This document shows positions 16,882 to 17,940 of a stretch of DNA of 33,050 nt, piece by piece; position 1 is the stretch's first letter; each line of letters begins with the position of its first letter. Made by a program: the position numbers and the translations under genes. The stretch spans positions 1 through 33,050 of the forward strand of contig CAIMBM010000026.1 of assembly GCA_903839205.1 (NCBI GenBank), written 5' to 3'. This DNA comes from an uncultured Holophagaceae bacterium. GTDB lineage: Bacteria > Acidobacteriota > Holophagae > Holophagales > Holophagaceae. Under the pieces are notes generated by a model. It was given only the letters and a program-made list of their open reading frames with translations, was not told the DNA's origin and made no database searches.

Positions 16882-17481
16882 ATGAAGCTGCCGCCGCCCC
16901 TCGAGGCCGTGATCGAAAGCCTCCAGAAGCTGCCTGGTGTGGGCGCCAAGTCCGCCCAGCGCATGGCCCTGCACCTGCTGAAGGAGGGCCCCGAGGCCAT
17001 GAACCACCTCGCCCACCAGCTGCAGCAGGCGGCGGAGAAGGTGGGCTTCTGCGGCGTATGCGGCGCCTTCACGGACCAGCCCATCTGCCCCATCTGCCTG
17101 GATCCCCGCCGGGACCCGGCCAGCCTGGTCATCGTGGCCGAGGCGTCCAATGTCCTCAGTTTCGAGCGCAGCGGGCGTTTCCGGGGCCGCTACCACGTGC
17201 TGGGGGGCCTCATCTCGCCCCTGCGGGGCGTGGGGCCTGACCAGCTTCGGGTCCGCGAGCTGCTGAAGCGCCTGGAGGACCACACGATCCAGGAGCTCAT
17301 CCTGGCCACCAACCCAACTGTCGACGGCGAGGCCACGGCCAGCTGGCTGGCCCGCATCCTCGAGCCCATCGGCATCCGCACCACTCGTATAGGGCTGGGA
17401 CTCCCCATCGGCAGCGACCTGGAGTACGCCGACGAGCTCACCCTGGACCGCGCCATGGAGGGTCGCCGGCCCGTCGGGTAG
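16882..17481 (+). CDS. recR: Recombination mediator RecR
   Basis: Works with RecO (and RecF) to load RecA on gapped single-stranded DNA. The 199-residue length is normal. It has a helix-hairpin-helix (LPGVGAKSAQRMA, 17-29), a C4 zinc finger with cysteines at 57, 60, 69 and 72, and a Toprim domain (about 80-175). The usual end of the protein (GLPIGSDLEYADELTLDRAMEGRR) is intact here. AGGAG precedes the ATG at 16882. The last 77 bp of this gene are repeated 171 bp further on, which is unusual; the functional copy appears to be this first one. Confidence 0.96.
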   Translation: MKLPPPLEAVIESLQKLPGVGAKSAQRMALHLLKEGPEAMNHLAHQLQQAAEKVGFCGVCGAFTDQPICPICLDPRRDPASLVIVAEASNVLSFERSGRFRGRYHVLGGLISPLRGVGPDQLRVRELLKRLEDHTIQELILATNPTVDGEATASWLARILEPIGIRTTRIGLGLPIGSDLEYADELTLDRAMEGRRPVG

Positions 17482-17575
17482 CCGATGGGGTCCCTTGGAC
17501 TACCCCCCGATCGCACGGCGCCCCGCGCCCTGCTCCCGCTCCCCGGCTTCGCCGGATCGCGGAGGGGGCCCCGTT
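17482..17575. other. 94-bp spacer between the two recR 3' ends
   Basis: A very GC-rich, apparently non-coding stretch bounded by CCGATGG at the left and CCATCGG starting just after its right edge, that is, inverted 7-mers. It resembles neither flank and no ORF or clear terminator is seen. It could be the remains of an inserted segment. Confidence 0.5.
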
Positions 17576-17652
17576 CCATCGGGAGCGACCTGGAGTACGC
17601 CGACGAGCTCACCCTGGACCGCGCCATGGGAGGTCGCCGGCCCGCCGGGTAG
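17576..17652 (+). pseudogene. Duplicated 3' end of recR
   Basis: These 77 bp repeat 17405-17481, the recR tail including its TAG stop. The only differences I count are four substitutions and no gap: CGGC to CGGG, AG to GA, and GTC to GCC. There is no start codon or upstream recR sequence, so it cannot make RecR by itself. The offset of 171 bp is a multiple of three. Confidence 0.9.
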
Positions 17653-17658
17653 CAGGGA

Positions 17659-17940
17659 CTAGTACTTCACGCTCACATCCCCCCTGGCCCAGGTCTGGCA
17701 GGCCAGGCGCTGGTCCGGGTTTGCCTTCAGCGCCCTGAGAACGCGGGTCTCGGCGGCACCCATCTCGCTCAGGTGTTCGGCCCCCGACTGGACCGTGACC
17801 AGGCAGGTGCCGCAACGGGCATGCCCACCACAGGTGTGGGGCAGCGGAACCGAAGCCTTGGCGCTGGCGGCGAGAAGGGCCGTCTCTCGGTCACATTCCG
17901 CAACGCCCGCAGTCTTGCCCTCGAATTTGATCGTGTGCAT
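17659..17940 (-). CDS. [2Fe-2S] ferredoxin
   Basis: A 93-residue electron-transfer protein. The cluster cysteines are at 37, 43, 46 and 81 (CGGHARCGTC then, 34 residues on, ACQT). This C-x5-C-x2-C spacing is that of adrenodoxin/Isc-type and related bacterial ferredoxins. The long AETRVLRALKANPDQRLAC segment is typical of that group. The ATG at 17940 lacks a clear ribosome-binding site; GGGTAG lies close by. It follows the PII gene on the same strand after a hairpin, so it may or may not be cotranscribed. Its partner protein is unknown. Confidence 0.92.
   Translation of the reverse strand: MHTIKFEGKTAGVAECDRETALLAASAKASVPLPHTCGGHARCGTCLVTVQSGAEHLSEMGAAETRVLRALKANPDQRLACQTWARGDVSVKY

Follow-up and report, generated by a model that had tools for sequence, protein, structure and literature searches.

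A folded repeat element between two copies of the recR end: a candidate family of small, non-autonomous mobile DNA with gene-restoring duplications

The window analysed here is a stretch of 33,050 nucleotides from an uncultured bacterium, and our attention was focused on the end of its recR gene (16882-17481, plus strand; NCBIfam TIGR00615, E 3e-73). The gene is intact, and the left copy of a direct repeat (17405-17482, plus strand) forms its 3' end; this copy carries the stop codon at 17479-17481 and represents the functional recR end; the right copy of this terminus lies at 17576-17653 on the same strand. A repeat search, which reported a single two-copy repeat family at the recR end, found that 74 of the 78 positions agree (95% identity), with 171 bp from start to start. 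This extends by one position the preliminary description, which had counted 73 agreements over 77 positions, stop codon included, and both its 171-bp spacing and its 94-bp spacer (17482-17575) were confirmed on the sequence, as was its statement that the spacer starts with CCGATGG (17482-17488) and runs into CCATCGG (17576-17582).

The spacer is composed of a left arm, or left part, of 15 nt that starts with CCGATGG (17482-17496, plus strand), and a core element of 79 bp (17497-17575, plus strand), matched by a covariance model, R1, with 88.2 bits. Three helices, P1, P2 and P3, make up the core, all given here on the plus strand. The 5' strand of P1 (17504-17508) pairs with its 3' strand (17564-17568), the hairpin of P2 (17513-17533) pairs 17513-17521 with 17525-17533, one pair being broken in the recR copy, and P3 (17536-17562) pairs 17536-17539 with 17559-17562 and bears an apical hairpin. 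After P1 comes a tail, CCCCGTT, whose end is the exact junction with the second recR-end copy, and the first 7 nt of that copy, CCATCGG, pair with the left arm. Native sequence resumes after the right copy (17653), followed by a 2Fe-2S ferredoxin-like gene on the minus strand (17659-17940; Pfam PF00111, E 9e-12). An assembly artefact is very unlikely to be the source of the repeat, because five further genomes show the same arrangement at recR, and genomes that consist of a single contig, such as G015 and G008, show it at other genes.

In a MAFFT alignment, 96.6% of the cells in the helices pair, and both sides have changed in 11 of 18 pairs, with 99 such cells as compared to 23 in shuffled controls and no more than 19 in slid ones. 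As single-sequence folding of the core with its flanks gave weak z-scores, the fold rests on covariation. Within the helices, A.C mismatches far exceed G.T pairs: A1 has 18 of the former and 1 of the latter, and the 86 best matches of A2 have 44 and 7. A single base pair contributes 6 and 23 of these A.C cases, respectively; leaving it out reduces the ratios to 12 to 1 and 21 to 6. The p-values of this strand bias are too optimistic, as the copies of the element are related by descent. This excess suggests that the folded strand would be the complementary one, i.e., the minus strand of the window, where G.T would be tolerated.

The element belongs to a dispersed family. In a BLAST search, the repeat together with its spacer was found in six places in the source genome (G000), and the spacer alone matched 38 of 47 genomes of the same genus (E<=1e-5). 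Model R1, built from 38 cores and comprising 79 model positions, has 28 matches in the source genome and detects the element in 63 of 77 genomes from the bacterial family, spread over 9 of 11 genera (E<=0.01). That family is probably Holophagaceae, judging from the best named RecR relative (L037), which is 90% identical. A scan of 396 genomes of the phylum (E<=1e-5) yielded 37 with matches, 34 of the same family and three of another one; these three (G078, G107 and G177) have one match each. Cores range from approximately 65 to 90 bp across the element family, and their ends differ by class, with GGACTA, CTGGC or CACACC at the 5' end and CCCCGTN, CCTCC or CCCCG at the 3' end. Left parts vary from locus to locus despite similar cores. 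Phage, plasmid and viral collections gave no match, the viral scan consisting of one exact 17-nt pattern; Rfam gave no match at E<=0.5 among 16 loci, and only chance-level hits in the window. No description of such an element family was found in the literature searched, most of it available short of full text, and it would be an unrecorded bacterial repeat family.

We then compared 30 recR ends from the same genus. Six are filled (in G000, G001, G007, G016, G019 and G024), one (G018) holds a deletion footprint, and 23 are single ends, i.e., the unoccupied form that the preliminary description had proposed to look for in relatives. At recR, the element is an insertion that duplicated the gene end, which supports the earlier view that an insertion had recreated it. 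The left arm is present in all six filled genomes and, minus its last bases, in the footprint, and in none of the empty sites; the footprint reads left copy, CCGATGGGG and tail of the second copy. In most empty sites, the end of the ferredoxin-like gene lies only a few bp past the recR stop. Filled genomes are scattered over the recR tree, mostly near empty ones. Within a genome, the two recR copies share 98.3% identity, as compared to 90.3% for left copies between genomes; this difference and the left arm common to the filled sites suggest a single old insertion that would have been homogenised and frequently lost, instead of six separate ones, and we favour this over repeated insertion at the same point. 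Several of the recR ends counted as empty (L013, L016, L017, L030 and L032) hold another insert, of approximately 100 bp to 1.2 kb, before the ferredoxin gene, which marks the gap after recR as a hotspot.

Empty sites were also found at miaB, where 15 of the 44 matching genomes are filled, 28 are empty and one is cut by a contig end, and at a third gene; at both genes, the empty sites that were read contain neither the core nor the left part. The possibility that the left part is decayed native sequence was rejected, as it is missing from the empty sites at three loci. At one locus (L186), the left part includes a native-looking terminator. At the third locus, one genome (L382 in G034) carries a truncated element, which keeps its left part and 17 nt from the start of the core before unrelated sequence takes over. 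Most loci look old, and none was caught close to the insertion event.

To see the flanks at other loci, four genomes (G000, G001, G015 and G046) were surveyed, with 120 R1 matches read, of which 86 reach at least 45 bits. A flanking direct repeat with a score of at least 18, a cut-off chosen after initial inspection of the scores, accompanies 74 of these 86, the maximum in reversed-flank controls being 14 (n=119); the remaining 12 lack a clear flanking repeat. The onset of the second copy lies no more than 3 nt from the 3' end of the core in 60 of the 74; the repeat is instead flush at the 5' end in 6 and at neither end in 8. Among the 34 weaker matches a repeat was found in 11, flush at the core's 3' end in 3. 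The core's last base often equals the native base preceding the repeat, and the true junction may therefore sit one base inside the core as drawn.

The repeats are approximately 20 to 200 nt long, vary by locus and span from the gene interior to the start or stop codon. After removal of near-identical starts, 42 loci remained, among which the same gene occurs twice in some cases. For 22 non-tandem loci, the gene was read from the translation and the values were entered by hand, tandem loci, tRNAs and unclear frames accounting for the 20 excluded; here, the length of the repeat tracks the distance to the codon with r 0.975, and the misfit has a median of 2 nt (27 in permutations), with 15 of the 22 within 4 nt and 19 within 10 nt. 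A script that inspected the left side of the element found an intact gene there in all 22. Family searches identified recR, ruvB, clpB, prfA, metK, uvrA, rsmI, mnmG, miaB, queE and ybgC as hosts, as well as genes for a XerC/D recombinase, YebC, superoxide dismutase, MoaE and a semialdehyde dehydrogenase. Moreover, mutL hosts copies at both its start and its end, the latter identified via a Pfam domain, and tRNA-Arg genes host three loci (L294, L302 and L338). A small number of copies (L319, L336 and L342) are located in terminators or in other non-coding sequence.

The pairing between CCGATGG and CCATCGG at recR, which is the inverted repeat flagged in the preliminary description, has its counterpart at other loci. 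Over 20 loci, complementarity between the bases to the left of the core and the opening of the second copy attained a level that was reached in none of 20000 permutations (controls, p 0.08 and 0.33), and over the 42 loci arm pairing gave p values from 0 to 1.5e-4, as compared to 0.11-0.86 in controls.

Several loci are built in other ways. Tandem units of repeat, left part and core occur at some of them (L164, L165, L138, L122, L202 and L345), and partial units were found too. One superoxide dismutase gene end (L186, 500-1400; L180 and L198) carries a stack of three cores that belong to different classes, and behind each core comes another stretch of the gene; at L186, one of the three sits in a natural hairpin loop with no duplication. 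One core of 83 bits in G015 (L224, 1501-1580) has no duplication and lies in phase (81 nt) inside an open frame, which we take to be an ORF6N-like protein gene. In addition, inverted pairs of weak cores, 6-8 bp apart and with no flanking repeats, were seen at L301 (967-1113), L306 (869-1009), L326, L328, L350 and L356, in sequence that resembles the long attC sites of integrons, with ends of the GCCTAAC and TTGAACG types.

Searches for a mobilising enzyme covered the same 77 genomes. Y1_Tnp (PF01797) was found in 13 of them and not in the source genome, RVT_1 (PF00078) in 22, with one match in the source genome, and the TnpB-type domain (PF07282) in 10, with none in the source genome. Y1/RAYT enzymes, reverse transcriptases and TnpB were rejected as mobilisers, being missing from most carriers. 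Three carriers (G046, G015 and G008) have none of the three domains, and as G046 and G015 are rich in elements, such enzymes need not be resident. No open reading frame near the cores that could represent an autonomous partner was common to the loci, except for same-region neighbours or weak paralogues. A site-specific integrase was likewise not found within the unit: the recR insert measures 94 bp, and the other loci share no open reading frame.

Altogether, we consider it somewhat probable that these copies form a family of small, non-coding, non-autonomous mobile DNA elements with long, gene-restoring duplications. We propose that an enzyme supplied in trans would join the folded strand of the element, more likely the minus strand of the window, to a site within a gene but close to the gene's edge, which at recR would be immediately ahead of CCATCGG (17576), and that pairing between arm and target would position the element's precise end. 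The other end would be closed tens to approximately 200 bp further out, duplicating the intervening stretch, by which the gene would stay whole, and insertions whose duplication does not cover the gene edge would be purged. Later recombination between the two copies could homogenise them, amplify them into tandem units or delete one, and deletion between the copies would restore the empty site. Against this proposal, the repeat fits the gene edge to within a few nucleotides, which would be unexpected from a plain staggered cut. Selection, with later erosion and homogenisation of the sequence outside the gene, is a likelier source of such a fit than a travelling gene-end cassette, as the repeat copies match their own genome. 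The proposal is further weakened by the searches that found neither an autonomous partner near the cores nor Y1, RVT_1 or TnpB-type domains in most carriers, by left parts that vary where cores agree, by the 12 of 86 matches that lack a clear repeat and by the old look of most loci. A bolder claim, to which we give little credence for now, is that a gene-free folded strand that picks its site by arm pairing with the inside of a gene or tRNA edge and remakes the terminus, independently of every transposase and reverse transcriptase that was looked for, would be a new class of mobile DNA.

Among the other explanations, one that we find unlikely, while giving it real weight, is a mini integrative element, in which gene-end copy, left part and core would form an attP-like circle used by a tyrosine recombinase, the gene being attB and the element's own copy restoring its end, perhaps acting as a folded single strand like integron attC sites. 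Such an element would account for repeats that halt at a start or a stop codon (15 of 22 to within 4 nt, r 0.975), for the use of tRNA-Arg ends, for the tandem arrays and for an arm that pairs with the crossover side. However, one core is common to dozens of unrelated target genes, the unit has no integrase and, as the gene-end copy at recR matches its own genome, no travelling cargo is seen there. It is less probable still that the core is a functional cis element, an mRNA or DNA structure held at gene edges by selection with the duplication being incidental; the strong covariation and the filling of the same loci in many species (miaB in 15) agree with this, but clean absence is frequent in close relatives, and the element follows gene ends as well as preceding gene starts, meaning that its orientation to transcription differs.

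The remaining explanations have very little to recommend them. The preliminary description saw what is left of a large integrative element after the loss of everything between its ends, in line with insertion at gene and tRNA ends and with the recreated gene end. This is very improbable, as the 94-bp insert is alike in all six filled genomes, the same core recurs at approximately 40 other loci in many genomes, and no larger insertion bounded by the recR repeat was found; the small form is thus the element itself. Local tandem duplication by replication slippage, which the preliminary description had offered as the simpler alternative, would explain a direct repeat and the tandem units at other loci; we regard it as hardly credible, because the spacer is a dispersed repeat that is missing from empty sites. 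Equally hard to credit is the guide RNA of a TnpB/OMEGA-like system, with the gene copy after the core serving as the guide: a structured core with a precise 3' end followed by host-gene sequence resembles such an RNA, but the TnpB-type domain occurs in only 10 of 77 genomes and is not found in the source genome, the copies far exceed guide length, and the strand bias favours the opposite strand.

If the mobile-element reading holds, insertion into essential genes would be harmless through the duplicated gene ends, and gene-end fragments otherwise annotated as pseudogenes would be explained by the element. Many housekeeping genes offer natural filled, empty and excised alleles, by which the origin of long, variable target duplications becomes testable.

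Genomic islands at gene and tRNA ends also restore the gene end, leave a second copy past the insert and accrete in tandem, and they carry an integrase and use one target. The element shares with them the restored gene end and the copy at its far side, but it is gene-free and has dozens of targets. MITEs are small, non-autonomous and dispersed; the element has no fixed short duplication and apparently no family-wide terminal inverted repeats at its unit ends; stems are formed by P1 and by arm pairing, but the outer arm differs by locus. REP/RPE repeats are nearest in kind, being short, dispersed and structured, located near gene ends and in repair genes, and partly arranged in inverted pairs (PMC3733652). 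According to the accessible part of that source, REPs are single palindromes of 20-40 bp with a GTAG or CGTC tag at one end, thought to be mobile in trans; the element, in contrast, has a core of 79 model positions with three helices, ends that vary by class with no family-wide tag, and the corresponding RAYT (Y1) transposase in only 13 of 77 genomes and not in the source genome. On size, tag and transposase, as far as this partial account goes, the element is set apart from REP/RPE and BIME repeats as small non-autonomous mobile DNA. The long gene-end duplication also appears to be the element's own, the words 'target site' and 'duplicat' being absent from PMC3733652. Long flanking repeats of variable length are known from IS1549 and IS1634, which generate direct repeats of 8-514 bp on insertion, with no mechanistic model given in the accessible part of PMC2266710, and those of the element (approximately 20 to 200 nt) are similar in this respect. 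Nevertheless, from what is accessible of that source, these are full insertion sequences with a DDE transposase, whereas the element is non-coding and its repeats end at gene edges.
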